From Anaerolineae bacterium (GTDB lineage Bacteria; Chloroflexota; Anaerolineae; Aggregatilineales; UBA3940), in contig JAFGOY010000002.1 in assembly GCA_016926255.1 (NCBI GenBank), positions 62,001 to 126,000 on the forward strand: a DNA stretch of 64,000 bases, written 5' to 3'. A program made the position numbers and the translations under genes. The notes under the pieces are model-generated. The model did not search any database and had not been told where the DNA came from. It worked only from the letters and a program-made list of their open reading frames with translations. Every line of letters starts with the position of its first letter. Within the stretch, counting starts at the first letter, position 1. Shown one piece after another: positions 10,735 through 59,746 of this stretch.

Positions 10735-11244
10735 ATGAGCGACTTAAAGACTTTCCGGCGGCGTAAGGACGAATTCTTCAAACACGACGAGCATTCGCCG
10801 CTGCTGCCTGAACAGAAAGACGGGTTCGACGGGCTGAACTATTTCGACGAGAACCCCGACCTCGCGTTTGTGCTCGATATGGACGTATTCGACGAGCACC
10901 AGCGGGTAACGATGCAGACCAGCACCGGCACGCCTGCCGACTACCTGCGATGGGGGAAGATCGCGTTCAGGGTGGAGGATCAGGACGCCGAACTGACGGT
11001 GTTCATCGCGGTTAATGGGGGCGGCTATTTCCTGCCCTTCATGGATGCGACCAACGGCGTCGACACCTACGAGGCCGGGCGCTATTTAGAGATCGATCCG
11101 CAGGCGGATGGCTCGTTCGTGGTCGATTTCAACATGGCCTACAATCCCTACTGCGCCTACAACCCGATGTGGACCTGCCCCATCCCGCCCAGAGAGAACC
11201 GGCTGAGCGTTCCCATCGAGGCCGGGGAGAAGGTGTTCGGGTAG
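10735..11244 (+). CDS. DUF1684 family protein
   Basis: 169 aa. The C-terminal signature 'DFNMAYNPYCAYNPMWTCPIPPRENRLSVPIEAGEK' (split here by function: YNPYCAYNP, then CPIPPxENRLxVPIxAGEK) is diagnostic of DUF1684. The N-terminal 'FRRRKDEFFKHDEHSPLLPEQ' is also characteristic. Function is unproven; the fold is thought to be all-beta and the protein cytoplasmic, as there is no signal peptide. Start ATG follows GAGGGGACGAGGAATCG. It is single-copy and intact here, but a second copy of its last ~45 bases occurs at 13369-13414, after the next two genes. Confidence 0.85.
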   Translation: MSDLKTFRRRKDEFFKHDEHSPLLPEQKDGFDGLNYFDENPDLAFVLDMDVFDEHQRVTMQTSTGTPADYLRWGKIAFRVEDQDAELTVFIAVNGGGYFLPFMDATNGVDTYEAGRYLEIDPQADGSFVVDFNMAYNPYCAYNPMWTCPIPPRENRLSVPIEAGEKVFG

Positions 11245-11367
11245 ACTTTGCAGCTGTCTGCGGCCCGGATAGGCTGGGGCAGACTGTCTTCGAATCTGAC
11301 ATTCTGTGTTGTTTTCATTGTCGATCTGGCGTAAAATAAATCCAGATCATAATAAAACACATTTTGT

Positions 11368-11407
11368 AAAGGTTTACCCGACCAGGAACGGGGAAACCTT
11401 TTTTTAA
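11368..11407 (+). terminator. Rho-independent terminator
   Basis: AAAGGTTT (11368-11375) pairs with AAACCTTT from 11394, with an inner CCCG/CGGG stem and an 8-nt loop, followed by a run of Ts to 11405. It lies 120 bp after the DUF1684 stop and 50 bp before the methyltransferase start, and separates the two units. Confidence 0.8.
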
Positions 11408-11457
11408 AACCTTCCGGTTGTGTGACCTGCGTTGATCATCCGAACAGGAATATAGAG

Positions 11458-12348
11458 ATGGCGAAGAAGCAGCAGATTCAAACCCTCGACTATTTCAAGA
11501 AACATGCCGGTGAGTGGAAGGAAAAAGCTGCCTCTGACAGTGAACGGCGGTTTAACGTCATTAAGTACCGGAATCAATACGTGTTGGACGTCGTTGCATC
11601 CAGGGCGGCGACGCGCTCGGTATTGGATGTAGGATGTGGAACGGGCGACCTGGTATGCGACATCGCCGGGATGGGTATCCCGGCCACCGGGCTTGATTTC
11701 TCCGACGAAATGATCGACCTCGCTCAAAAAGAAGCCAGCCAGAGGAACCTTCCCACAGCCGATTTTATCTGTCAGTCAATATTTGACTATGATTTTTCCT
11801 CCAATACCTTCGATGTCATCGCGGCGAATGGGTTTATTGAGTACATCTCGTACGATGAACGTGACCGCTTCTTCGAACTGGCCTACCAGGGACTTAATCC
11901 GGGAGGATCGCTCGTCGTAGGTTCGCGCAACCGGCTGTTCAACCTGTTTTCACTGAACAGCTACACTGAGAAAGAGATCTCACAGGGAACTGCGGCCCAA
12001 CTTCTGGCGGAGGCGGTTGCAATCGCTGCTGCGCCGGACATCACACAACTGGCCGACCTGGAGACAGCGCCGCTCCAGCCAATGGACACAGAACATACCG
12101 ATACCGGCATTGGCGTTACGACCCGATATCAGTACACACCGGTGCAGTTGATGCGCTTGCTCAATGCCCGCGGATTTTCGGTCAGGCAGATATTCCCCGT
12201 TCACATTCATGGCGTAAACCCGGCGTTCAAGGGACTCCATCCCGAAGTACACTTTAGCATCGCCATGCTGCTTCAGGACTATGGCTACGATCACCCCTCA
12301 CTGATTCCCTACAGCTCGACCTTCATGGTGCATGCTTTCAGGGAGTGA
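11458..12348 (+). CDS. class I SAM-dependent methyltransferase
   Basis: The ATG at 11458 begins MAKKQQIQTLDYFKKHAGEW; an in-frame upstream extension has no ribosome site. The 296-aa protein has SAM motif I 'SVLDVGCGTGDLV' near residue 60, motif II acid in 'GLDFSDEMID', and 'FDVIAANGFIEYIS' as post-motif region. The C-terminal 100 residues ('YTPVQLMRLLNARGFSVRQIFPVH') follow the usual Methyltransf_11/25 pattern. The target is unknown. It is followed 4 bp later by a polysaccharide deacetylase gene, so modification of a cell-surface glycan or lipid-linked sugar is the simplest reading. Confidence 0.8.
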   Translation: MAKKQQIQTLDYFKKHAGEWKEKAASDSERRFNVIKYRNQYVLDVVASRAATRSVLDVGCGTGDLVCDIAGMGIPATGLDFSDEMIDLAQKEASQRNLPTADFICQSIFDYDFSSNTFDVIAANGFIEYISYDERDRFFELAYQGLNPGGSLVVGSRNRLFNLFSLNSYTEKEISQGTAAQLLAEAVAIAAAPDITQLADLETAPLQPMDTEHTDTGIGVTTRYQYTPVQLMRLLNARGFSVRQIFPVHIHGVNPAFKGLHPEVHFSIAMLLQDYGYDHPSLIPYSSTFMVHAFRE

Positions 12349-12352
12349 TGAT

Positions 12353-13354
12353 ATGCCATCCTTGCTGACAATAATCATGTATCATTACGTACGCGACGTA
12401 CAGGGTTCGCGTTTCCCCGATATAAAGGGGCTTACGGTCGAGCAGTTTTCGGCCCAAATCGACTATATAAAAAAGTACTACACCGTGGTCGGCGGCAGGG
12501 AACTGCTGGATGCCATCGCTCCGGGCGGCGAACTTCCACCCAGGGCAGCGCTTCTGACGTTCGACGATGGGTACATTGACCACCTTCTCAATGTCTACCC
12601 TATCCTGGACCGTAATCACCTGTCGGCGTGCTTCTTTCCGGTGGCGAAAGCGGTTCTCGAGCACCATGTGTTGAACGTGAACAAAATCCATTTTGTGCTG
12701 GCTTCCACCACGGACAAAGAGAAGATCATCAGCCGTATTTATCACTGGCTGGATGAATATCGAGCCAGCTACGAACTTCCCAGCAACAACGACTACTGGA
12801 TCAGGCTGGCAGTCGCCGGGCGCTTCGATACCCCGGAAATCGTATTTACCAAGCACCTGCTGCAGCGGGAACTCCCAACCGATTTGCGTGACATCATCAC
12901 CAGCCTGCTGTTCGGCGAATTCGTCACCTCAGACGAAACAGCATTTGCGTCGGAACTATATATGAACAACGAGCAGTTGGTTTCCCTGTATAGAAGCGGC
13001 ATGTACATCGGAGGGCATGGCTACAGTCACAACTGGCTCAATACGCTGGACAGAGCGGAACAGGAACGCGACATCGACGCCGGGCTGGACTTTATAAAAT
13101 CGGTTGGGGATTCGCCGGGTGGTTGGATATTTTCATATCCGTATGGGGCCTATAACGATTCGCTGCTGTCCGTTCTACGCGATCGGGGCTTCAACATCGG
13201 GTTGACCTTACATGTGGGCATTGCCCGGCTCGATGCCGATCAACTGCTGACGCTTCCCCGGTTGAACACAAACGACTTGCCCAAACTGGCCGATTCGTCC
13301 CCGAATGACTGGACTCGTCAGGTCATCGGTGAGGGGCAGGCAGTGCTGCATTAA
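12353..13354 (+). CDS. polysaccharide deacetylase (CE4) family protein
   Basis: The ATG at 12353 starts 4 bp after the methyltransferase stop. In the 333-aa protein, 'LLTFDDGY' (residues about 65-72) is CE4 motif 1 with the catalytic and metal-binding Asp pair. 'GGHGYSHNWL' gives the H-x3-H metal ligands, displaced far downstream by an inserted helical region (about 95-215). 'FSYPYGAYND' is motif 3. The large insert between motifs 1 and 2 is unusual among short NodB domains but occurs in capsule and PNAG-type deacetylases. No signal peptide is seen; the N-terminus MPSLLTIIMYHYV starts directly with the first strand, so it likely acts in the cytoplasm. Confidence 0.85.
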   Translation: MPSLLTIIMYHYVRDVQGSRFPDIKGLTVEQFSAQIDYIKKYYTVVGGRELLDAIAPGGELPPRAALLTFDDGYIDHLLNVYPILDRNHLSACFFPVAKAVLEHHVLNVNKIHFVLASTTDKEKIISRIYHWLDEYRASYELPSNNDYWIRLAVAGRFDTPEIVFTKHLLQRELPTDLRDIITSLLFGEFVTSDETAFASELYMNNEQLVSLYRSGMYIGGHGYSHNWLNTLDRAEQERDIDAGLDFIKSVGDSPGGWIFSYPYGAYNDSLLSVLRDRGFNIGLTLHVGIARLDADQLLTLPRLNTNDLPKLADSSPNDWTRQVIGEGQAVLH

Positions 13355-13368
13355 CCGGACATTAAATC

Positions 13369-13414
13369 TCGCCAAGAGAGAATCGCCTGAGCATCCCCAT
13401 CGAGGCCGAGGAGG
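13369..13414 (+). pseudogene. detached 3'-end fragment of a DUF1684 gene
   Basis: In the + frame the bases read PRENRLSIPIEAEE, matching the intact DUF1684 protein's PRENRLSVPIEAGE at 11188-11230. Nucleotides match as well (for example GAGAGAATCGCCTGAGC against GAGAGAACCGGCTGAGC). Upstream codons of the gene are missing. The fragment starts just after the deacetylase stop (13354), so the methyltransferase-deacetylase pair is bracketed by two same-direction copies of one gene's 3' end. Confidence 0.7.
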
Positions 13415-13503
13415 CAGAGATGCACGGCCAGAGGTCGAACGACCAGAAGTCGTCCCCTGTCCAGAGTCGAAAACGAGTGCAATAACTTACACAAAAGTGT
13501 AAG

Positions 13504-14425
13504 TTATTGCACTGATTTTTCTTGGTGGTTGACGATATAAATCCCCGCCAGGACGATCCCGACGCCAAGTAATTGGGGCAGAGAGGGATATTCGAACAGC
13601 AGAAAATAACCGAGGATCAGAATCACAACCGGCTGGGCCAGCAAAAAGATAGCGACTCGTGTCGCCGGGATATGGCCCTGGGCGAAATTGATCGACAGAA
13701 AGCCCACCGTCTGCCCGATCAGGGCAACAAGGAAGAGATTGAGATAGCTCCGGGGAGCAAGCCCCAGCAGGTCGAAGCCCTGGAATATCGATAGGAAAAA
13801 CAGGACAACCGACGCCGAGAGCATGGTCAGCACGAGGTAAAGATAGGCGCTGACCTTCTCACGGGTTCGCTGGGTGATCAGCATGTAGGCGGCATAAAGA
13901 AAAGATGAGCCAATCGCCATCAGGTCGCCGGTATTGGATAGGGCGAACCGGCGCAGGTCGATATCGACGACAAGCGCGACCCCGGCCAGTGCCACGATCA
14001 CGCCCAGCCAGAAGCGCGGTGACAGCTTCTCGCCGAAGATGAAGAACGCACCCACCGCCACCCAGATCGTCGAGAGGTTGGTCAGCAGGACGGCGTTGGT
14101 CGCCGTCGTTTCGAGGATCGCCTGGTTGTAGAGGGCATTCTCGACCGCGTAGGCGGCTCCCCCCCACCAGCGCCGCAATCAGCAGGCCGCTCTCGGCGGC
14201 GGATATCTCGGCGATGAGCTTTCGCCGCATGTGGGGAATCAGGAGGGCGAAGGCTGACAGCAGCAGGAAGGCGATCAGCATCCGGAAGAAAGCCGATATA
14301 CTGCCATTGACATTCGCCCAGCGGATGAAAAGCGGGCTGGAACCAATGCACAGCACGCCCAGCGTCAGGCTGGCGTAGGATCGCTTAACTGTGTCTGGTT
14401 TCAGCCCGTCATCGCTGTTTGACAT
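13504..14425 (-). pseudogene. EamA/DMT-family transporter, frameshifted
   Basis: Two overlapping frames together give one ~300-aa, ten-TM drug/metabolite transporter. The first part (14425 to about 14160) begins MSNSDDGLKPDTVKRSYASL and ends near 'SGLLIAALVGG'. The second (from about 14160 to 13504) continues 'AAYAVENALYNQAILETTATNAVLL' and runs to a normal C-terminus with the second EamA repeat. The break falls at a run of seven Cs at 14159-14165, so a one-base slip, sequencing error or phase variation would all explain it. Substrate unknown. The rest of both halves is well preserved. Confidence 0.8.
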
Positions 14426-32385: not shown

Positions 32386-32958
32386 GTGACAACCGACAAT
32401 CGATCCGCATTGATGGATCACGCGCTGCGGCTGTTTGCCGCGCGGGGTTTCGACGCGGTGGGTGTGCAGGAGATCGTCGAGGCGGCGGGGGTCACCAAGC
32501 CGACCCTCTATCACTACTTCGGCAGCAAATCCGGCCTGCTCGATGCCATCCTGCGCGAGCACTTCCGCGCGCTGATCGGGAAGGTCGAGAAGGCGGCGGA
32601 CTACCAGCACGACATCACGCTGACGCTGCAAAAGGTGGTCGAAGCCTATTTCGACTTCGCCCGCGAGAACGGCACCTTTTACCGCTTTCAACTCGCGCTG
32701 ACCTTCGCCCCGGTCGAGAGCGATGGTTATCAGGCAGTGCTGAAGTATCACGAGCAGCAGTTCGACATCATCGAGCGGCTGTTCCTGCTGGCCGCCGAGG
32801 ATCACGGCAACATGCGCGGGCGGCATCGACGTTACGCGGTGACCTTCATGGGGCTGATCAACAACATGATCACCCTCTGGCTCAACGGTCACGCTGAACT
32901 CGACAAAAACCTGGTCTATGACGCCACGCACCAGTTCATGCACGGGATTTTTTCGTAG
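32386..32958 (+). CDS. TetR/AcrR family transcriptional regulator
   Basis: 190 aa from a GTG preceded by GGAGGATCA. The N-terminal HTH reads 'LMDHALRLFAARGFDAVGVQEIVEAAGVTKPTLYHYFGSKSGLLDAIL', the standard TetR_N pattern. The C-terminal ligand domain (about 60-190) is helical and not assigned to a ligand. Two identical 16-bp operators, one in its own promoter and one before the GH13 gene, suggest it represses both. Its ligand is then probably a maltodextrin-related or other signal for GH13 expression. That is inference. Confidence 0.9.
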   Translation: MTTDNRSALMDHALRLFAARGFDAVGVQEIVEAAGVTKPTLYHYFGSKSGLLDAILREHFRALIGKVEKAADYQHDITLTLQKVVEAYFDFARENGTFYRFQLALTFAPVESDGYQAVLKYHEQQFDIIERLFLLAAEDHGNMRGRHRRYAVTFMGLINNMITLWLNGHAELDKNLVYDATHQFMHGIFS

Positions 32959-33070
32959 CGAGCGCGTTTGCGTAATCGGTGATTGGGGGATATCATTCCC
33001 CGGTCTGGCTGATTTTTATGGTAGTGAACTCAATATTCCGGATCGGACTATTTTTTTTTGCTGGAAGCCG

Positions 33071-33086
33071 TATACCGACCGGTATA
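33071..33086 (+). promoter_or_regulatory. operator copy before the GH13 gene
   Basis: TATACCGACCGGTATA, identical to the tetR operator at 32337-32352. It sits 27 bp before the GH13 start codon, overlapping a possible -10 (TATAGA, 33083-33088). The matching -35 is weak. Confidence 0.8.
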
Positions 33087-33112
33087 GAGTTCGGCAGCTT
33101 ATTGGAGAAACA

Positions 33113-34480
33113 ATGATGCCAACAATGACAATGGAACACTGGATCGATAACGCGATCTTTTATCACATCTACCCGCTGGGATTCTGCGGCGCACCATCGC
33201 AGAACGATTTCCGCTCCCCGGCAGTTCACCGGCTGGATCACATCCTCGGCTGGCTCGATCACCTGCAAGACCTCGGCATCACGGCCATTTACCTGGGGCC
33301 GGTGTTCGAATCGACCGAACACGGCTACGACACGGTCGACTATTACCACGTCGACCGGCGGCTGGGCGACAACGATGCGCTCAAGCGGCTGATCGAGGCG
33401 ATCCACGCACGCGGGATGCACGTCGTCCTCGACGGGGTATTCAACCACGTCGGGCGCGATTTCTGGGCCTTCTACGATCTGAGGCAAAACGGAGAAGAAT
33501 CGGCCTACCGGGACTGGTTCCACGGGCTGCGCTTCGGCGAACAGAGTCCCTGCGGCGACCCGTTCAGCTACACCGGCTGGGAAGGTCACTACTCGCTGGT
33601 CAAGCTGAACCTGGGTAACCCGGAAGTGCGCCAGCATCTCCTCGACGCGGTCGCCTTCTGGCTCGACGAGTTCGAGATCGACGGCCTGCGCCTCGACGCC
33701 GCCGATCAGGTCGATCCGGCTTTCTGGCGCGAACTCTCGGCCTTCTGCCGCGACCGCTGCTGGCTGATGGGCGAGATCATCCACGGGGATTATCGCGACT
33801 GGGCTAACCCGGATATGCTGCATTCGGTAACCAACTACGAGGTGTACAAGGGGCTGTGGTCGAGTCACGTGGATCGCAACTACTTCGAGATCGCCTATTC
33901 GCTCGACCGTCAGTTCGGCTCGACCGGTTTATACCAGGACTTGATGCTCTATAATTTCGTCGATAACCATGACGTGGATCGGGTTGCCAGCCAGCTCGAC
34001 GACCCGGCGCACCTGTTTCCGCTTTACGCGCTTTTGTTCACCATACCCGGCGTGCCGTCGATCTACTATGGCAGCGAGTGGGGGATCGACGGAAAGAAGT
34101 CGAACGGCAGCGATGCGCCCCTGCGCCCCTATCTGCCCCTGCCCGGCGAGATCGCCCAGAGCGCCCCGCTTCCCGATCTCCTCAACGCGATCCGCAAATT
34201 GATCGACGTGCGGCGTCGGCTGCCCGCGCTTCAGCATGGCGGCTACGAGCAGTTACACGTCGCCTCCGAGCAGTTTGCCTTTGCCCGTCAGGCTGATGAT
34301 CAGTCGGTGATCGTGGCGGTCAACGCCGCCGATCAGCCCGCCCCGGTCGAGATCGCCCTCCCCCACGCGGGGAGTCGGCTGGTCGACGAGTTGAATCCGG
34401 GTGATACGTTCGGCGTCGATGGGGGCCGCGTGCGGATCGACGTGCCGCCGCGCTGGGCGCGGGTGCTGAGAGTGGAATAA
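33113..34480 (+). CDS. GH13 alpha-amylase family glycosidase
   Basis: The ATG at 33113 is preceded by GGAGAAACA; the frame is open to 32918 but overlaps the tetR end and the operator. In the 455-aa protein the four GH13 blocks are clear: 'DGVFNHVG' (107-114), 'GLRLDAADQV' with nucleophile Asp195, 'GEIIHG' with acid/base Glu221, and 'FVDNHD' with Asp287. A C-terminal beta domain ends 'LVDELNPGDTFGVDG' and a basic tail. There is no signal peptide, so it probably processes imported maltodextrins or cyclic glucans. Decayed copies of its 3' end lie at 36096, 36827 and 37577. Confidence 0.9.
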   Translation: MMPTMTMEHWIDNAIFYHIYPLGFCGAPSQNDFRSPAVHRLDHILGWLDHLQDLGITAIYLGPVFESTEHGYDTVDYYHVDRRLGDNDALKRLIEAIHARGMHVVLDGVFNHVGRDFWAFYDLRQNGEESAYRDWFHGLRFGEQSPCGDPFSYTGWEGHYSLVKLNLGNPEVRQHLLDAVAFWLDEFEIDGLRLDAADQVDPAFWRELSAFCRDRCWLMGEIIHGDYRDWANPDMLHSVTNYEVYKGLWSSHVDRNYFEIAYSLDRQFGSTGLYQDLMLYNFVDNHDVDRVASQLDDPAHLFPLYALLFTIPGVPSIYYGSEWGIDGKKSNGSDAPLRPYLPLPGEIAQSAPLPDLLNAIRKLIDVRRRLPALQHGGYEQLHVASEQFAFARQADDQSVIVAVNAADQPAPVEIALPHAGSRLVDELNPGDTFGVDGGRVRIDVPPRWARVLRVE

Positions 34481-34589
34481 GACAGCAATCAGATAGATTC
34501 GATTGAGAATCTGTCAGTGTATCGGCGAGTAAGTAAGTATAGATTTCTGGTATAACGGTCACGGTTGATAAAGACTCGGGAGGTGACCG

Positions 34590-35534
34590 TTGACCAGAAA
34601 CACATACTGTTTAGTCATCGCAGCGATGCTGATATTCAGTGCATGCACTACTTCCTCACTATCACCAGAAGACCCTCTTGCAGCCAATATCGATTTTAAT
34701 GATGTCAGATTCGTGGATTTAGCAAACATCCCAGAAAACCTGGAACACGAAGAGGCAGAAGCAAAGGAGTTTGGGCTATGGCTTGATATCAAAGGGATTT
34801 ATGCAATTGACCAAAACACAGTATTCCTCTTCGGAGCGATAGGGCCGCCGTGCTGCTACGGGCGGTCACTGTTGCTGCGATCTACAAACGGAGGGTTGGA
34901 TTGGGAGGAAGTCTTGCCACCGCTGCTGGGAAATTCAGTCTTTCATGTTGTATTCCTGGAGGATGGTTTAGGATGGGCATTATCTCCCTGGGTTGTCGAA
35001 GATATTGGCAGGCTGACTCTATACCAGACCGAAGACTACGGTGAAACCTGGAATCAGCTTTCCGAAATACCCAATGATCGGAGATATCCCTATGGGATGG
35101 AGTTCTCTGACAAGATGAACGGGAATCTGTATGTCACATACATAATTGGTTCGCCAACAGATCGATATGCCACGCTTACAACATCTGATGGTGGGTTGAG
35201 CTGGGAAGAAACTGACAGTATTCCGCTGGTTTGGGAATGGGACAGATCCGAAGACAAGAGTGAATCACGGGAGGTGTTTGCCCGTGATGTTTATGACCTA
35301 TTAGAACCTCCGGGCAGTGCTATGGGTAGACACTGGTTACCCTGTGATGGTTACTGTGAGGCGACCGGTCACGATGGCAGCCTCTGGCGGACAGAGGAAA
35401 ACCAGGAATCCGATCAGTTGGCCGTATATCGCCAGCTTGGTATCGAAGATGGCTGGCAAACAGTGAGTATACTCCCTACCCATTTTGGATATTTCAATGG
35501 GCATGTGGACGATCCCATTCATGGGGATGATTGA
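34590..35534 (+). CDS. lipoprotein with BNR/Asp-box repeats
   Basis: TTG start at 34590 with GGGAGG six bases upstream; 314 aa. 'LVIAAMLIFSACTTS' is a lipoprotein signal. Three Asp-box-like motifs follow, 'STNGGLDWEE', 'TEDYGETWNQ' and 'TSDGGLSWEE', so the body should be a beta-propeller like the sialidase/photosystem-II-assembly (YCF48) group. No catalytic set is evident and a binding role is more likely. AT-richer than its neighbours. First cargo gene after the GH13 3' end. Confidence 0.75.
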   Translation: MTRNTYCLVIAAMLIFSACTTSSLSPEDPLAANIDFNDVRFVDLANIPENLEHEEAEAKEFGLWLDIKGIYAIDQNTVFLFGAIGPPCCYGRSLLLRSTNGGLDWEEVLPPLLGNSVFHVVFLEDGLGWALSPWVVEDIGRLTLYQTEDYGETWNQLSEIPNDRRYPYGMEFSDKMNGNLYVTYIIGSPTDRYATLTTSDGGLSWEETDSIPLVWEWDRSEDKSESREVFARDVYDLLEPPGSAMGRHWLPCDGYCEATGHDGSLWRTEENQESDQLAVYRQLGIEDGWQTVSILPTHFGYFNGHVDDPIHGDD

Positions 35535-35566
35535 ATTACCGATTACTATGGTATCTACTTAATTGT

Positions 35567-35800
35567 CTATTTCAGCAGATCGAGGAATTCCTCGCGGGTG
35601 AGATCGGCCTGACGGAGGATGGCACTCAATGTGCCGCGCGGGAGCGTCTTTTTCCCGGTCGGGACGGGCACGGTTCGGGCCGGAGGTGGCACATCACGGC
35701 GCATCTGAACGTGACTACCGCGCTGTCGAGAGATAGTAAATCCGGCTTTCTGCAACACTTTGATACAATCGTCCGGGCTGACCGCAGGCAGCTTGCTCAC
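35567..35800 (-). CDS. hicA: HicA-type toxin (mRNA interferase)
   Basis: 77 aa, beginning MSKLPAVSPDDCIKVLQKAGFTISRQRGSHVQMRR. The 'GSHVQM' block carries the catalytic His of HicA/YcfA dsRBD-fold toxins, and 'KKTLPRGTLSAILRQADLTREEF' is the conserved C-terminal helix region. HicA cleaves mRNA and is neutralised by HicB. The start overlaps the hicB stop by 4 bp. Confidence 0.92.
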   Translation of the reverse strand: MSKLPAVSPDDCIKVLQKAGFTISRQRGSHVQMRRDVPPPARTVPVPTGKKTLPRGTLSAILRQADLTREEFLDLLK

Positions 35801-36027
35801 GGCTCGATCACCAGTTCCTGAGTAACAGGCAGTTCTGGCATATCTTCAGGCGGCACCGGGTCGCCGTTAGCTACCAAATCCTCGATATGCAGGTCAATCG
35901 CCTCGCGGATCATGGCGATAGCCTCTTCGATGGTGTCGCCCATGCTGGCAATCCCCAGGCTGGGACATTCCACCCAGTAAGCGACATCTTCATCAGGCTC
36001 AGAGCGGTGAATGATGATTCGGCGCAT
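35797..36027 (-). CDS. hicB: HicB-type antitoxin
   Basis: The ATG at 36027 follows CTGGAGGTGCCGC. The 76-aa protein 'RRIIIHRSEPDEDVAYWVECPSLGIASMGDTIEEAIAMIREAI' is a partial RNase H-fold HicB domain. There is no obvious C-terminal DNA-binding segment, so autoregulation may be by the complex or absent. hicB precedes hicA here. Upstream, after 69 bp, stands a GH13 3'-end copy. Confidence 0.88.
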   Translation of the reverse strand: MRRIIIHRSEPDEDVAYWVECPSLGIASMGDTIEEAIAMIREAIDLHIEDLVANGDPVPPEDMPELPVTQELVIEP

Positions 36028-36095
36028 GCGGCACCTCCAGATCACATCGTTGCTATCATTATAGCCGCTGTAATCGAGATTCGCAGCAGCGTCGA

Positions 36096-36160
36096 CAATC
36101 GGCTGGTCGATGAGCTGAATCCAGGCGATACGTTCGGCGTCGATGGGAGCCGCGTTATGC
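36096..36160 (+). repeat. GH13 3'-end fragment, copy B
   Basis: In the + frame it reads NRLVDELNPGDTFGVDGSRV, matching the GH13 gene's own C-terminus at 34374-34440 (SRLVDELNPGDTFGVDGGRV) at protein and mostly at DNA level. The homology stops after 'CGCGTT'. Neither the gene's body nor its stop is present. Confidence 0.85.
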
Positions 36161-36308
36161 ATGGGTGCTGCCTGCGAAGTAAATGCCAATCTCGCATTAC
36201 AATATGATGACTAAATCGAATGGGCCAGAAAATCTGTACTACAATGTAAAAGTATGACTGTTCTTATTAGATCATTTGAGATATATCGTTAGGCAAAGAG
36301 AACTTATC

Positions 36309-36728
36309 ATGGAAAAGCAATATGCACTTGTCGTGGATGACAACCCGGATGCCCGTGAAATTCTTGACCTGGCCCTGACCCGCTTCGGATTTGAGGTAGA
36401 GCTTGCCTGCGACGGCGCTGAAGCACTGGAAAGCACCAAAAAGCGCATTCCCGATCTCATTATGCTCGATCTCATGATGCCAGGCGTCAACGGGTTCCAG
36501 GTGCTGTCCCGGCTGCGCGCTCTCCCTGAAACGCGCCACATCCCGGTGATTGTCATCTCGGCAGTCAGCAACCAATCGCTGATGCAGGTTCCCGGCGTGA
36601 GTGCCGTAATCCAGAAATCAAGGTTTTCCGTTCGAGAGCTGCAATCGATCATTGACGGTGTGATGGCGAAACATCAACCACTGGTCAGACATCAGCCGCT
36701 GGTCGAATGCCAGCCGCTGGTCGTTTAG
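36309..36728 (+). CDS. single-domain response regulator with repetitive tail
   Basis: The ATG at 36309 gives 139 aa. A full receiver domain: acidic pair in 'LVVDDNPDARE', phospho-acceptor Asp in 'LIMLDLMMPGVNGFQ', Thr/Ser in 'VIVISAVSN', and Lys in 'IQKSRF'. The C-terminus is a tandem repeat, HQPLVRHQPLVECQPLVV, encoded by ~18-bp repeats. No output domain and no kinase lie nearby. It sits between GH13 3'-end copies B and C. Confidence 0.85.
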   Translation: MEKQYALVVDDNPDAREILDLALTRFGFEVELACDGAEALESTKKRIPDLIMLDLMMPGVNGFQVLSRLRALPETRHIPVIVISAVSNQSLMQVPGVSAVIQKSRFSVRELQSIIDGVMAKHQPLVRHQPLVECQPLVV

Positions 36729-36826
36729 AAGCTGACAGGCTGTCTGATCGGATAGCTCTGTCGGGCTGGGATGAGGGTTTTTTTACAAGCCGGGTGGCAA
36801 AATTGAGCCACCCGGCTTTGATTCGG

Positions 36827-36899
36827 CGTCGATGGAGGCCGTGTGTGGATCATCGCGCCGCCGCGCCGGGCGCGGGTAATGCGGGTGGAGCAGGGACAG
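36827..36899 (+). repeat. GH13 3'-end fragment, copy C
   Basis: TTCGGCGTCGATGGAGGCCG and the following 50 bases read FGVDGGRVWIIAPPRRARVMRVE, matching the end of the GH13 protein (RIDVPPRWARVLRVE) and even more closely copy D at 37577 (RIIAPPRRARVMRVE). The stop codon is lost (GAG-CAG). It ends 12 bp before the DUF5615 stop. Confidence 0.88.
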
Positions 36900-36910
36900 A
36901 GGCAGTGTGA

Positions 36911-37282
36911 TTACTCTTTCTCAACGGGCAACTGCCGGATGCGTATGGCGACCTCTTCCACGCTGATGATCGCTCCCTCTTGAAGACGGTCGGTGCAGCA
37001 GGCAAGCACATCTTTAAGGCGGGCAGTGACATATTCGGCGGTTTTGTTCCCCAGCCGGAAGATCACAACACTGGGCAGCCGCGCACCGCTTACCGCCATC
37101 AGATAACCAAAATCGAGATCGAGCGTCAGCAAGACGCGGCCTTCGCTGCGGGCTTTTTCCAGAAGGTCTTCATCAGGAGTGCGCTGCATAGCAGCTTCAC
37201 GGGCATGAAGAGCATCATATCCCTGGTCGCGCAGCCAGCCGACCGTGAGATTGGAAATCCCCATGTCGGCCAGGAACTTCAT
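36911..37282 (-). CDS. DUF5615 PIN-like toxin-type protein
   Basis: 123 aa. 'MKFLADMGISNLTVGWLRDQGYDALHARE' and 'VLLTLDLDFGYLMAV' are the two acidic blocks of DUF5615 proteins (PIN-fold, Mut7-C-like), which are putative ribonuclease toxins. The first acidic residue is Asp6 ('LADMG'), where many members have 'LxDENL'. Its start overlaps the stop of the upstream DUF433 gene by 4 bp, the typical pairing. Confidence 0.85.
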   Translation of the reverse strand: MKFLADMGISNLTVGWLRDQGYDALHAREAAMQRTPDEDLLEKARSEGRVLLTLDLDFGYLMAVSGARLPSVVIFRLGNKTAEYVTARLKDVLACCTDRLQEGAIISVEEVAIRIRQLPVEKE

Positions 37283-37509
37283 GCCGATTTACCGGTGTAG
37301 ACCTGCTCCTGGGCCAACCAGGCCGCATAGGCCAGTGCCTGCCGAATATCCTCCGGTTCCAGATCGGGGTACTCTTCCAGAATCTCGGCAGTCGATTTAC
37401 TGTGCGCCACCAGGTTTATGATCAGCGAGGCCGGGATCCGCATCCCCCGGATACAGGCCTGACCGTTCATAATCTGGCGGTCAAAGGTAATGCGATCAAG
37501 CTGCTGCAT
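37279..37509 (-). CDS. DUF433 antitoxin-type protein
   Basis: 76 aa. 'ITFDRQIMNGQACIRGMRIPASLIINLVAHSKSTAEILEEYPDLEPEDIRQALAYAAWLAQE' is the complete DUF433 domain, a small winged-helix-like fold usually encoded upstream of DUF5615. Proposed antitoxin and autoregulator. It starts 68 bp from GH13 3'-end copy D, almost the same spacing as hicB from copy B (69 bp). Confidence 0.87.
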   Translation of the reverse strand: MQQLDRITFDRQIMNGQACIRGMRIPASLIINLVAHSKSTAEILEEYPDLEPEDIRQALAYAAWLAQEQVYTGKSA

Positions 37510-37576
37510 GGTGATTGCTCCTGTACTACCCTCCTATCATACCCCTGATTCCGAAATTTGCGACCGCGCCCCGGCT

Positions 37577-37684
37577 GGTCAACTGATCGACGAATTGAAT
37601 CCGGGCGATGCTTTCGGCGTCGATGGGGTCCGTGTGCGGATCATCGCGCCGCCGCGCCGGGCGCGGGTGATGCGGGTGGAGTAG
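37577..37684 (+). repeat. GH13 3'-end fragment, copy D (with in-frame stop)
   Basis: About 108 bp reading QLIDELNPGDAFGVDG, then VRVRIIAPPRRARVMRVE and a TAG stop. It is the longest copy and covers the whole region from the GH13 residue about 423 to the C-terminus. It shares the IIAPPRRARVM variant with copy C. The same bases in the intact gene are at 34374-34480. Confidence 0.9.
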
Positions 37685-40480: not shown

Positions 40481-40547
40481 GGTGAAAACCCCCACTGTCA
40501 CTACGTGACATCTCCCCCAGTTTTGGGGGCGATTGGGGTTGGGCTGG
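40481..40547 (+). repeat. dispersed repeat family R1, copy a
   Basis: AACCCCCACTGTCACTACGT-GACATCTCCCCCAG, then a TGGGGGCGATTGGGGTTGGG end. The stem is TGTCAC/GTGACA. It lies just before a possible TATAAT (40572-40577) and the restriction-modification gene. Confidence 0.65.
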
Positions 40548-40613
40548 CTTTTCAATGTCGACTGGCGGGATTATAATGGTGCTCTACCATCACTAACCGG
40601 GAAACAAAAAGAT

Positions 40614-43415
40614 ATGAACGCGACTGAATTCATCACTAAATGGCGCGGTATGAGCATCAAGGAGCGATCCGGGGCACAGGAGCATTTCATCGACCTGTGC
40701 CAGTTGGTCAACCACCCCACACCTGCGACGTACGATCCCAGCGGGGAAAGTTTTACCTTCGAGATGGGGGTCAAAAAAGCAGGGGGCGGGCAGGGATTCG
40801 CCGACGTGTGGTTCAAGGATCATTTTGCCTGGGAATACAAAGGCCCCGGCAAAGACCTGGACAAAGCCTACGACCAGCTTTTGCTATACCGGGAAAACCT
40901 GCTCAACCCGCCGCTGCTGGTGGTGAGCGATTTCGAGCACATCCAGATTCACACCAATTTCACCGGGTCGGTGCCGAAAACCTACGACATCCACATCGAG
41001 CAGCTAGACCAGGATACCTTTTACGACCAGGTTTACAACCTGTTCCACCACCCGCACAAACTCGACCCGAAGTTAAGCCCCGAAAAGGTGACCGGCGATG
41101 CCGCCCAACGATTCGCAGAACTGGCCGACCAACTGCGGCGGGATCATCCCCCGCGCAAAGTGGCCCATTTTCTGACCCAACTGGTGTTCTGCTTCTTCGC
41201 GGAGGACATCGGGCTTCTGCCGGGGCGGGAAGGCAAACGGGGCGGCGTGCTGACCGAGATCATCGAAAAGAGCCAGGGCGACCAGTATCGCCTGTTCCCC
41301 GAAGCGGCCCGCGACCTGTTCGGGGCGATGGTGGGCGGGGGCCGGGTATGGCTGAACCAGATCAAGCACTTCAACGGCGGGTTGTTCGAGGATGAGAGAG
41401 ACACGCTGTTCGTCCCACTGCTGACGCCCGACCAGTTGGGCACGCTCTACACGGTGGCTCAAATGGATTGGAGCGGCATCGAGCCGACGATCTTCGGGAC
41501 GCTGTTCGAGCGCGGGCTGAACCCGGACAAGCGGGGGCAGCTTGGCGCACACTACACCAGCAAAGCGGACATCCTGGCGATTGTCGAGCCGGTATTGATG
41601 GCCCCGCTGCGGCGTGAATGGGATTCGGTGAGGGCGAAAGCCGACAAAGCCAGCCCCGCCGAAAAGGAATCGCTGCGCGGGGGGATGCTCGAAAAGCTGA
41701 AAGCGACGACGGTGCTCGACCCGGCCTGCGGGAGCGGAAATTTTTTGTACGTGAGCCTGAATCAACTGCTCGACCTTGAAAAAAAGGTGCTGACTTACCC
41801 GGCTTTTGTCGATTTGCCCAGGCTGAGTCCGGCGGTACACCCCTGCCAGTTGAACGGGATCGAGATGAGCGACTACGCCCACGAGTTAGCCAGCGTGGTG
41901 ATCTGGATTGGCTACATCCAGTGGCACCGGCGGAACGGCTACGTTTACGAGCAGGTGCCGCTCCTGCAGAAGTTGAACAACATCCTGTGCATAGATGCGA
42001 TTTTAGCGGTGGACGAGGACGGGAAGCCCTACAAACCGGCGTGGCCGGAAGCAAAGGTGATTGTCGGTAACCCGCCGTTTTTGGGCAGCAAGAAAATGCG
42101 CTCAGAGCTTGGCAGTGATTATGTTGACTTACTTCACGATCTCTATGGAGAAATCGTCTACGGTGAAGCCGATTTTGTAACCTATTGGTTTGAGATTGCC
42201 AGAGAGCAGATTAACAAACAACGAGCACAAAGAGTCGGTTTGCTGGCAACGCAGGGTATTAGAGGTCAGGTCAACAGGGGGACTCTTGAGCGGATCAAAC
42301 GTGACGGGAATATTTTCTTTGCATATTCAGATCGCAAGTGGATTTTAGATGGTGCAATGGTTCGTGTTTCTATGGTGGGTTTCGACAATGGCACTGAAAC
42401 AGAGAGGCTTTTGGATGGTGAATCCGTTCACAATATAAATGCCGATCTGACAAAAGGTCTTGATCTGACTACTGCGGTTCAACTAGATGAAAATCAAGAC
42501 ATTGCATATATGGGAACGACCAAAGGAGGCGCATTCGACCTGACTCCTGAACAGGCTCAAGAAATGCTTTCCGCGCCACTTAATCCCAACGGCAGATCTA
42601 ACAGTGATGTGATCCGTCCCTGGCGAAACGGTAGAGACATCACAGATCGCTCTCGTGATTATTGGATCATTGATTTCGGGACAGACATGACTTTAGAACA
42701 GGCTTCTATGTATGAGATGCCTTTCGAGCATATAAAGACACATGTCAAGCCAGTCCGTGCATCCAATCGACAAAAGGCTTACCGTGAAAAATGGTGGCTA
42801 TTTGCAGCGTCTCGTTCGGGAATGCGCGAGGCTTTCAAGAAATTGGGGAAATACATAGCTACGGCCAGGGTGTCAAAGTATCGTATATTTGTGTGGTTAG
42901 ACACATCGATCCTGCCTGATAGCCAACTAATTGTTTTCGCCCGCGATGACGATTACTTTTTTGGTGTGCTGCACAGCAAGGTTCACGAAATCTGGTCACT
43001 TCGTCAGAGTACACAGTTACGTGATAAATCCAGTGGAAATCGCTACACACCCACGACGACCTTTCAAACCTACCCCTTCCCCTGGGCACCGGGCGAGGAA
43101 CCAACAGACGATCCGCGCGTGCAGGCCATCAGCGAGGCGGCGTGGGAGTTGAACGATCAGCGCGAGGCATGGCTCAACCCGGAGCGCGGGCCGAATCAGG
43201 AATTGAGCAGCTACGAGTCGATGCTCAACAAGCGCACGCTGACCAATCTCTACAACGACAATCCCACCTGGCTGCAACTGGCCCACGAGCGGCTGGATCG
43301 GGCGGTGTTCGCTGCGTATGGGTGGGATTATGACGAACTGGTGATCGATGGGGTGGTCGACGAGGAGGAGATATTGCGTCGGCTGCTCGAGTTGAATCTG
43401 GAGAGGGCGGGATAA
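40614..43415 (+). CDS. MmeI-type single-chain restriction-modification enzyme (type IIL)
   Basis: The ATG at 40614 follows a TATAAT at 40572; upstream codons in frame overlap the repeat. The 933-aa protein has an N-terminal PD-(D/E)XK nuclease with Asp64-X9-Glu74-Tyr-Lys76, the same D-X9-EXK spacing as MmeI, and a helical connector. An N6-adenine methyltransferase follows: motif I 'DPACGSGNF' (369-377), motif IV 'GNPPF' (485-489). Then comes a target-recognition region (about 650-830) and a C-terminal helical part. It would cut unmethylated DNA and methylate one strand at its site. Bases about 42060-43060, covering the end of the methyltransferase and the recognition domain, are clearly lower in GC. 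No separate methylase is nearby. Confidence 0.87.
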   Translation: MNATEFITKWRGMSIKERSGAQEHFIDLCQLVNHPTPATYDPSGESFTFEMGVKKAGGGQGFADVWFKDHFAWEYKGPGKDLDKAYDQLLLYRENLLNPPLLVVSDFEHIQIHTNFTGSVPKTYDIHIEQLDQDTFYDQVYNLFHHPHKLDPKLSPEKVTGDAAQRFAELADQLRRDHPPRKVAHFLTQLVFCFFAEDIGLLPGREGKRGGVLTEIIEKSQGDQYRLFPEAARDLFGAMVGGGRVWLNQIKHFNGGLFEDERDTLFVPLLTPDQLGTLYTVAQMDWSGIEPTIFGTLFERGLNPDKRGQLGAHYTSKADILAIVEPVLMAPLRREWDSVRAKADKASPAEKESLRGGMLEKLKATTVLDPACGSGNFLYVSLNQLLDLEKKVLTYPAFVDLPRLSPAVHPCQLNGIEMSDYAHELASVVIWIGYIQWHRRNGYVYEQVPLLQKLNNILCIDAILAVDEDGKPYKPAWPEAKVIVGNPPFLGSKKMRSELGSDYVDLLHDLYGEIVYGEADFVTYWFEIAREQINKQRAQRVGLLATQGIRGQVNRGTLERIKRDGNIFFAYSDRKWILDGAMVRVSMVGFDNGTETERLLDGESVHNINADLTKGLDLTTAVQLDENQDIAYMGTTKGGAFDLTPEQAQEMLSAPLNPNGRSNSDVIRPWRNGRDITDRSRDYWIIDFGTDMTLEQASMYEMPFEHIKTHVKPVRASNRQKAYREKWWLFAASRSGMREAFKKLGKYIATARVSKYRIFVWLDTSILPDSQLIVFARDDDYFFGVLHSKVHEIWSLRQSTQLRDKSSGNRYTPTTTFQTYPFPWAPGEEPTDDPRVQAISEAAWELNDQREAWLNPERGPNQELSSYESMLNKRTLTNLYNDNPTWLQLAHERLDRAVFAAYGWDYDELVIDGVVDEEEILRRLLELNLERAG

Positions 43416-43960
43416 CCCCCTCTGGACGACTGCGTCGTCCATCTCCCCCAGTATTGGGGGCGATCAGGGTTGGCCTCGTCTATTACAATTCGAGTCCATG
43501 ACCCCAGACCTGGGGGCGATCAAAGCGGATCGATTTTGCGCGTGGAGGATCACCCCCTCTGACCGACTACGTCGGCCATCTCCCCCACCGGGGGCGATCA
43601 AGGCGGTTCGATTTTGTGCGTGGAGGATCACCCCGTCCCCCTCTGCCCGACTTACGTCGGCCATCTCCCCCACAGGGGGCGATCAGGGTTGGGCTGGTTT
43701 GATACGGTGAATTGCAGGTGAACAAAGTGGGCGACCGCATAGGGTCGGCAACTGATATTCAGTTGCTATACAGTTTTGCTTCACAAAACATGGGTCGCCC
43801 CTACGGGACGGTATCGAAAATTGGGCGGCGGAGAGCAGGGCGGATCGATTTTGAGCGTGAAGGAGCACCCCGTCCCCCTCTGTCACTGCGTGACATCTCC
43901 CCCACAGGGGGCGATCAAGGCGGCAGCAATGCTCCCCGCTTACCTGACCCGGCACACCCC
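43411..43960. repeat. dispersed repeat family R1, tandem copies b-e
   Basis: Four copies in about 550 bp after the restriction-modification gene. Each carries a CCCCCTCT(G) start, a stem of changing sequence, CATCTCCCCCA and a GGGGGCGATCAAGG end. Stems: GGACGAC/GTCGTCC (43435), CCGAC/GTCGG (43562), CCGAC/GTCGG with a longer loop (43649) and GTCAC/GTGAC (43883). A sequence 'CGATTTTGCGCGTGGAGGAT' links units. A non-repeat stretch (43715-43830) lies inside. No gene is supported in 43416-44024. Confidence 0.7.
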
Positions 43961-53640: not shown

Positions 53641-53830
53641 GGGCACGATAGTCTGTGCCCTCATGCTGTCGATTTTGTGCGTGATGGATAACCCCCTTCG
53701 ACGAACCTCCGGTTCGCCACTTCCCCCAGAATTGGGGGAAGTCAGTCGTGGCATAAGGTCGTGATTACAATTCAAGACGATGATCTCCCCCAATACTGGG
53801 GGAGATGGGCGACGCAGTCGGTCAGTGGGG
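53641..53830. repeat. dispersed repeat family R1, copies f and g (facing each other)
   Basis: GAGGGCACGATAGTCTGTGC-CCTC hairpin, then copy f (53691-53745) with stem CGAACC/GGTTCG. Copy g (53779-53832) is in the opposite direction, reading on the minus strand ATAACCCCCACTGACCGAC, then GCGTCGCCCATCTCCCCCAG. The gap between the FGE genes and the NifX-like gene holds nothing else. Confidence 0.65.
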
Positions 53831-57477: not shown

Positions 57478-57535
57478 CCCCCTCTGTCTCCTTCGGAGAC
57501 ATCTCCCCCAAACCTGGGGGCGATCAAGGGTTGGC
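57478..57535 (+). repeat. dispersed repeat family R1, copy h
   Basis: CCCCCCTCTGTCTCCTTCGG-AGACATCTCCCCCA then ACCTGGGGGCGATCAAGG. The stem TGTCTCC/GGAGACA shares no sequence with other copies, although its position and flanks are the same. It lies between the DUF5320 and ferredoxin genes. Confidence 0.65.
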
Positions 57536-57543
57536 TAAGTTAC

Positions 57544-59619: not shown

Positions 59620-59725
59620 ATAATCTGTGCCCTCGTTTTGTGCGTGATGGATAACCCCCTCTGGCCGACTGCGTCGCCCATCTCCCCCAGTATTGGGGGC
59701 GATCAAGGTTGGGCTGGTTTGATAC
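59620..59725 (+). repeat. dispersed repeat family R1, copy i
   Basis: GGGTACGATAATCTGTGCCC, 'TTTTGTGCGTGATGGATAAC', CCCCCTCTGG, stem CGAC/GTCG, CATCTCCCCCAG, TATTGGGGGCGATCAAGG and TTGGGCTGGTTTGATACG. Closely matches copies b (43413) and d (43680), and its 5' part matches 53641-53690. Nothing coding is seen in 59609-60062. Confidence 0.7.
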
Positions 59726-59746
59726 GATTACGGATGAACACAAAAA

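Follow-up and report, generated by a model that had tools for sequence, protein, structure and literature searches.

The window, a stretch of 64,000 nucleotides (positions 62001-126000 of contig C50) from a Chloroflexota draft genome of 4.61 Mb in 82 contigs, contains an intact DUF1684 gene, which is the single full copy in this genome. It is followed on the same strand by a module of two genes, coding for a methyltransferase and a polysaccharide deacetylase, and then by a convergent gene for an EamA-type transporter (Table 1). Both module genes have a GC content of 53.5%, as against 59.2% for DUF1684 and 57.4% for the window. Relatives of the deacetylase were lacking at E<=1e-25 among 120 related genomes, and on account of this absence we regard the module as accessory. 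Behind the deacetylase stop codon, after a gap of 11 bp, lies a 48-bp segment that aligns without gaps to codons 150-165 of DUF1684 (BLAST E 7e-11). In a control with 400 other genes from this genome, whose 3' ends were searched against the same 12 kb, the best match reached only 32/48. Thus, the duplication of the DUF1684 3' end around a two-gene module, which a preliminary description had reported, is real, as are the absence of any trace of the remainder of the gene at the second site and the identity of the two genes in between. Its positions require a slight shift, with PRENRLSIPIEAEE occupying 13372-13413 (not 13369-13414) and PRENRLSVPIEAGE 11188-11229. Its wording that the segment matches the gene's own end is correct as to the neighborhood of the 3' end but not as to the very end, because the copy stops 15 nt before the last base of DUF1684 and is devoid of the terminal KVFG and the stop codon. 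Each of the two tail copies has a separate terminator-like hairpin 3' of it. The frame of the transporter gene is broken near a C run at about 14160 into two overlapping frames, by either a frameshift or a sequencing error.

Table 1. Coordinates of the features discussed; positions are those of the window except in the last row
Feature	Position	Strand	Remarks
DUF1684 gene (anchor gene A)	10735..11244	+	169 aa, intact; Pfam PF07920, E 3.8e-46
Copy a0, 3'-end segment within intact DUF1684	11182..11229	+	41/48 identical to 13366-13413
Terminator-like hairpin AAAGGTTTACCCG/CGGGGAAACCTTT (11368-11401), then T run, 3' of DUF1684	11368..11408	+	Inverted repeat I17; putative function
Module X, gene 1: class I SAM-dependent methyltransferase	11458..12348	+	Pfam Methyltransf_25, E 2.5e-20
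Module X, gene 2: polysaccharide deacetylase	12353..13354	+	Pfam PF01522, E 1.2e-20
Copy a', displaced 3'-end scar	13366..13413	+	41/48 identical to copy a0
Terminator-like hairpin, 17 pairs, 3' of scar	13476..13513	+	Inverted-repeat search
Gene D, EamA-type transporter, convergent, downstream	13504..14425	-	PF00892, E 4.4e-32
GH13 gene, second instance in the window	32918..34480	+	Its 3' end is 34374-34479
GH13 3'-end copy, upstream part	36099..36155	+	91% identical
GH13 3'-end copy, downstream part, directly after hairpin ending the response-regulator gene	36822..36889	+	Repeat search
GH13 3'-end copy with its own stop codon at its end	37583..37683	+	85% identical
Dispersed repeats	43410-43882, 40509-40550, 53782-53823, 57500-57541, 59649-59729
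Dispersed repeats, further positions	17812, 21699, 54314; 7547, 48495, 56966
kdpE/ybfI locus, E. coli K-12	716721-721733		Stretch L240, 16721-21733

The DUF1684 module contained no integrase, transposase or common end sequence, and its ends showed no convincing inverted repeat. It does not resemble the integrative elements that lodge in gene 3' ends (tRNA/icd type), as the methyltransferase and deacetylase genes stand alone between the copies. Nor does it resemble a transposon or insertion sequence, there being at DUF1684 neither a transposase nor terminal inverted repeats, and the copies at the scar loci taken together not showing the neutral drift of initially identical sequences. A diversity-generating retroelement is likewise not indicated: neither of the two genes between the copies is a reverse transcriptase, and the changes in the DUF1684 copies are of mixed type rather than located at template adenines.

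The parallel that had been drawn with a GH13 gene in the same window is also real, and richer than claimed, as the GH13 3' end recurs at three downstream places. In this array (34480-37684), the three displaced copies act as separators of gene modules. To judge from their sequences, one module joins a BNR-like lipoprotein gene to a HicAB-like pair, another is a response regulator, and a third is a DUF5615/DUF433-like toxin-antitoxin pair. One of the tail copies is interrupted by the response-regulator module, and its two halves have about 24 bp in common.

In a self-comparison of 1.1 Mb, where a gene shared a direct repeat with intergenic DNA, the genic copy mostly came from its final tenth and the intergenic fragment lay downstream. 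A controlled survey covered 1239 genes in 1.87 Mb, the 150-bp 5', middle and 3' segments of each gene being compared with 12 kb on each side. At E<=1e-6, the 3' end was repeated directly in downstream intergenic DNA for 10 genes; the corresponding numbers were 3 for a 5' copy upstream, 2 for a 5' copy downstream, 2 for a 3' copy upstream, and none for the middle segment (P=1e-4 under equal categories). Scar lengths range over 35-180 bp; longer 3' fragments within called genes were not found, the only such matches being true paralogues. The anchor genes include those for DUF1684, GH13, an FtsA-like protein, a MacB-type permease, an SLC13-type transporter, an aldo/keto reductase, and a glycosyltransferase, the names other than GH13 and DUF1684 being our reading of the sequences. 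At several loci (GH13, C50:44662, C24:232, and C15:23868, in stretch coordinates) the tail copies number two to three, each separated from the next by a complete gene or gene pair. The inference that the DUF1684 and GH13 repeats are not two unrelated accidents is therefore borne out by ten loci in 1.87 Mb, as against two to three for each mirror arrangement, and by further cases in another genus and in Escherichia coli. Five of the 29 contigs sampled (C50, C15, C6, C24, and C25) hold all ten loci, with none on C23, C19, C9, C18, C20, C17, C8, or C2. Contamination of the bin was considered as a cause of this clustering and rejected, in that the tetranucleotide profiles of C50 and C15 match those of the other large contigs; C6 is the outlier. 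Two candidates from other genomes were discarded, one (G038, 52335) as a simple tandem repeat and one from an acidobacterium (L053, 19275) as a miscalled reading frame with the wrong codon pattern. Separately, two called genes of different length on C15 (102728-103942 and 108936-110831), 7 kb apart, share an identical 32 bp just before their stop codons.

The differences between the copies are informative about their history. Over 12 copies, mismatches by codon position were 48/358, 21/361, and 81/359 for the first, second, and third positions, respectively (chi-square P 1.4e-8); the examples from G026, a genome of the same order, and from E. coli add a further 5, 7, and 23. The DUF1684 copies on their own show 2, 1, and 4, which has the same direction but is too few to stand alone. 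Neutral drift of a nonfunctional fragment would change second positions as fast as third positions; hence, the third-position excess predates the loss of function, and the two tails therefore derive from two diverged working genes. On this pattern, the copies evidently diverged as coding DNA before one of them lost its function. Moreover, the homology mostly ends at the stop codon (offsets of 0, -1, or +1) even though the scars are not genes, as expected if both versions had differing downstream sequences. These observations leave hardly any room for a long target-site duplication, produced by a transposon-like element or the repair of a staggered break and followed by neutral drift of the scar. 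Such a duplication would spare the gene if it spanned the stop codon, and would hence be seen at 3' ends; however, neutral drift of one copy cannot generate 21 second-position against 81 third-position mismatches, the homology ends at stop codons, the DUF1684 module has no transposase, and in both G026 and E. coli K-12 (see below) the tails of scar and gene come from different haplotypes. The same third-position divergence would fit long-lived functional paralogues, and thus a tandem duplication of DUF1684 around the module with decay of the second copy to 48 bp. We nevertheless consider this very doubtful. A relative with two intact DUF1684 genes at these positions had been proposed as the observation that would point to such decay, but among the 40 relatives searched the gene is single or accompanied by a distant second copy on a different contig, and is never in tandem. 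Furthermore, remnants of all three gene parts (5', middle, and 3') would be equally expected from decay, whereas those of the 3' end dominate, and the empty sites in the genus described next carry single genes.

The nearest relatives are 65-68% identical in protein sequence and do not keep the downstream neighbors of DUF1684, so that, in the absence of usable synteny, the two haplotypes expected at this locus, A-X (DUF1684 followed by the module) and A-D (DUF1684 followed directly by the transporter side), were not seen among relatives. Orthologous comparisons were instead available in genus g15 (five species), which belongs to a different family of the same order and includes G026, where the intergenic matches are exclusively of the 3'-end-downstream class. 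At a histidine-kinase locus (A being the kinase gene), G031 has the order A-D2, G040 has A-H-D2, and G026 has A-X-a'-H-D2, where X is a CAP/LysM gene and a' is a 59-bp kinase tail. In G026, a' and the bases after its stop have exactly the same continuation as in G040, whereas X follows the tail of the intact kinase gene. At a LuxR-type regulator locus, G040, G015, and G031 have A-X-D, and G026 has A-X-a'-Z-D, with the scar beginning right behind the hairpin that ends X; in G021 the scar is present with other sequence after it. A further scar candidate in G026 (C3:315192) proved to be a tandem paralogue. Across the five species, four different contents are found behind the one histidine-kinase gene. 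At this locus (L205-L213), identity between G015 and G021 stands at 99.8% until about 370 bp behind the kinase gene and then falls to 93%, this drop being the edge of a recent recombination tract.

As a control, seven 50-kb stretches of E. coli K-12 were surveyed, yielding one true example. The ybfI pseudogene consists of 144 bp of the kdpE 3' end, 90% identical to it up to the stop codon, with speFL-speF-potE in between; mismatches by codon position are 3, 3, and 8. The order in K-12 is kdpE-speF-potE-ybfI-ybfG-ybfP-pgm. Strain HH97 has kdpE-speF-potE-pgm, without ybfP-ybfG-ybfI, and its kdpE tail is of the ybfI-type allele; CUWW10 has kdpE-ybfG-ybfP-pgm, without speF-potE. From these sequences, K-12 reads as an apparent composite of an HH97-type haplotype up to the end of potE and a CUWW10-type haplotype from the last 144 bp of kdpE onward. 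As the CUWW10 kdpE is the K-12 allele throughout, that strain may have arisen later, by loop-out between the tails, instead of preserving the ancestral state untouched. The kdpE/ybfI and DUF1684 loci have in common a 3'-end copy downstream of an inserted module, with alternative haplotypes for the former preserved in other E. coli strains; the kdpE/ybfI scar is, however, longer and less diverged, and lies in a finished genome with thousands of relatives.

The K-12 case also bears on two further explanations of the DUF1684 repeat. The first is that the repeat is an assembly chimera of two strains: the sequence is a metagenome-assembled draft of 82 contigs, and if strains differed in the genes after DUF1684, the assembly would branch precisely there. 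This is highly improbable, as the same anatomy recurs in the finished K-12 genome and in contigs of an unrelated assembly, the sequence taken has no runs of N, and variants diverged by 15% would overlap at length rather than over 48 bp. The second is a circular intermediate, in which the module and a copy of the anchor gene's 3' end are carried on a small circle that integrates by a single homologous (Campbell-type) crossover, repeated events giving arrays. This would produce the same final geometry and account for the multicopy arrays (GH13, C24, C15, and C50), and it has been proposed to explain the arrays at rhs loci (Jackson et al. 2009, PMC2935791). Nonetheless, neither a circle nor an excision product is in evidence, the initial junction between the module and the tail must itself arise illegitimately, and the pieces in E. 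coli are ordinary linear haplotypes, making circles unnecessary; we therefore hold this route to be unlikely.

The reading that we favor, with a probability of roughly 0.7, is that the 48-bp DUF1684 copy is a recombination scar from the joining of the haplotypes A-X and A-D, one junction being guided by homology and the other illegitimate. Related cells would have held the two versions of the locus, one with DUF1684 followed by the methyltransferase-deacetylase module and one with DUF1684 followed by the present downstream sequence. Incoming DNA would pair through a homologous stretch at one end, located inside DUF1684 or else in the flanking DNA downstream, while at its other end the sequence just behind the module would be linked illegitimately to the interior of the 3' part of the other DUF1684 version. 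One 3'-end version would then remain with the intact gene, and the second would persist as a short noncoding scar before the transporter gene; repetition of such events could give arrays such as that behind GH13. The product fits a homologous anchor on either side, and the combination of a RecA-anchored step with an illegitimate one is presumed. The haplotypes at the G026 histidine-kinase and K-12 kdpE loci display a heterologous segment beside homologous sequence together with a nonhomologous join, whereas at the DUF1684 locus the end product of such a join is seen with no intermediate haplotype. With its nearest relatives at no more than 68% protein identity, the DUF1684 locus is assigned this mechanism by analogy, and may have originated by the same route as the g15 and E. 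coli loci. The genome encodes ComEC and two DprA homologues, which are compatible with DNA uptake but would not prove it.

One-sided homologous recombination with an illegitimate join explains the scars without an integrase. The prominence of 3' ends would follow in part from the fact that no scar results when the join falls behind the stop codon, and from the expectation that long repeats loop out, so that long scars should be lost. A 5' scar, on the other hand, would bring a promoter and a start codon and may be selected against. This last argument is needed, as mirror-image 5' scars are to be expected from a one-sided mechanism but are rare here; that rarity, like the clustering of the scar loci on 5 of 29 contigs, counts against the favored explanation. 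A mechanistic step favoring 3' ends is possible. It would be central to an alternative in which these Chloroflexota possess integrase-free cassettes, each a gene with an anchor-gene tail. The tail would act as a locus-specific attachment site by which a cassette docks at the 3' end of a conserved gene. The cassettes would be complete single-gene modules (a gene with a terminator or promoter) in routine exchange, and the 3' preference would be mechanistic, for instance through transcription, rather than due to selection alone; we judge this quite improbable. The preliminary proposal of a general 3'-end insertion process can be divided: a general pattern of 3'-end scars at ordinary genes is supported, but a dedicated insertion process is neither supported nor needed, given that the DUF1684 module lacks an integrase, a transposase, and shared ends and that a mosaic join explains the orthologous comparisons. 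Most likely, the scar marks a gene gain and not a new mobile element.

Homology-facilitated illegitimate recombination has been described in transformable species (de Vries and Wackernagel 2002; Prudhomme et al. 2002) and in E. coli conjugation (PMC3240628), and has been considered as an origin of short variable segments in E. coli (PMC2884548). It shares with the present cases a homologous anchor on one side, an illegitimate join on the other, and a heterologous insertion without an integrase, and it would yield the geometry and the divergent copies found here, the codon-position pattern (48/21/81) being that of diverged alleles. It is, however, known from laboratory crosses, whereas here it is deduced from natural genomes. 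Rhs C-terminal displacement likewise leaves an intact gene followed by an array of its own displaced 3' pieces and intervening genes, but there the displaced tips are different toxin domains on a conserved core, whereas here the same conserved tail of an ordinary enzyme recurs with unrelated cargo. For arrays of orphan immunity genes at type VI secretion (T6SS) loci the same mechanism has been proposed (Kirchberger et al. 2017, PMC5361080), as it has for CDI loci, with CDI orphans known from Acinetobacter (PMC6336857). These arrays show successive displacement, with the older downstream gene kept and remnants of effector 3' ends, but are confined to competition loci, unlike the DUF1684, GH13, FtsA, histidine-kinase, response-regulator, and transporter genes described here. 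With ordinary proteins as anchors in place of polymorphic toxins with immunity genes, the present loci work like Rhs, CDI, and T6SS arrays without being such arrays. Displaced-tail arrays are thus already known at those loci, and what is found here is the scar at ordinary genes. Minimal mobile elements of Neisseria exchange whole genes between conserved flanking genes. They resemble the g15 histidine-kinase locus in the differing whole-gene cargo between the same conserved genes, but they are clean exchanges, with homology on both sides and no 3'-end scar.

If the favored reading is correct, short downstream copies of a gene's own 3' end would constitute a single-genome signature of recent one-sided import, readable in metagenome-assembled genomes without close relatives. 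The scars would identify the imported genes as those between the copies and, in arrays, the order of their arrival. The natural rate of a recombination route usually measured in the laboratory would become comparable across bacteria, and the K-12 ybfI pseudogene offers a well-sequenced model for testing. The sampled rates, from small numbers of loci, are about 5 per Mb in the genome under study, about 4 in G026, and about 3 in K-12, and in view of this similarity we make no claim that Chloroflexota are special. Contig C50 additionally carries dispersed intergenic repeat families (CATCTCCCCCA..., CCCCTCTAATCTCGC..., and CAAACTTTTGAAAAAGTTTGA...; Table 1), which are sparse or absent on most of the other large contigs.
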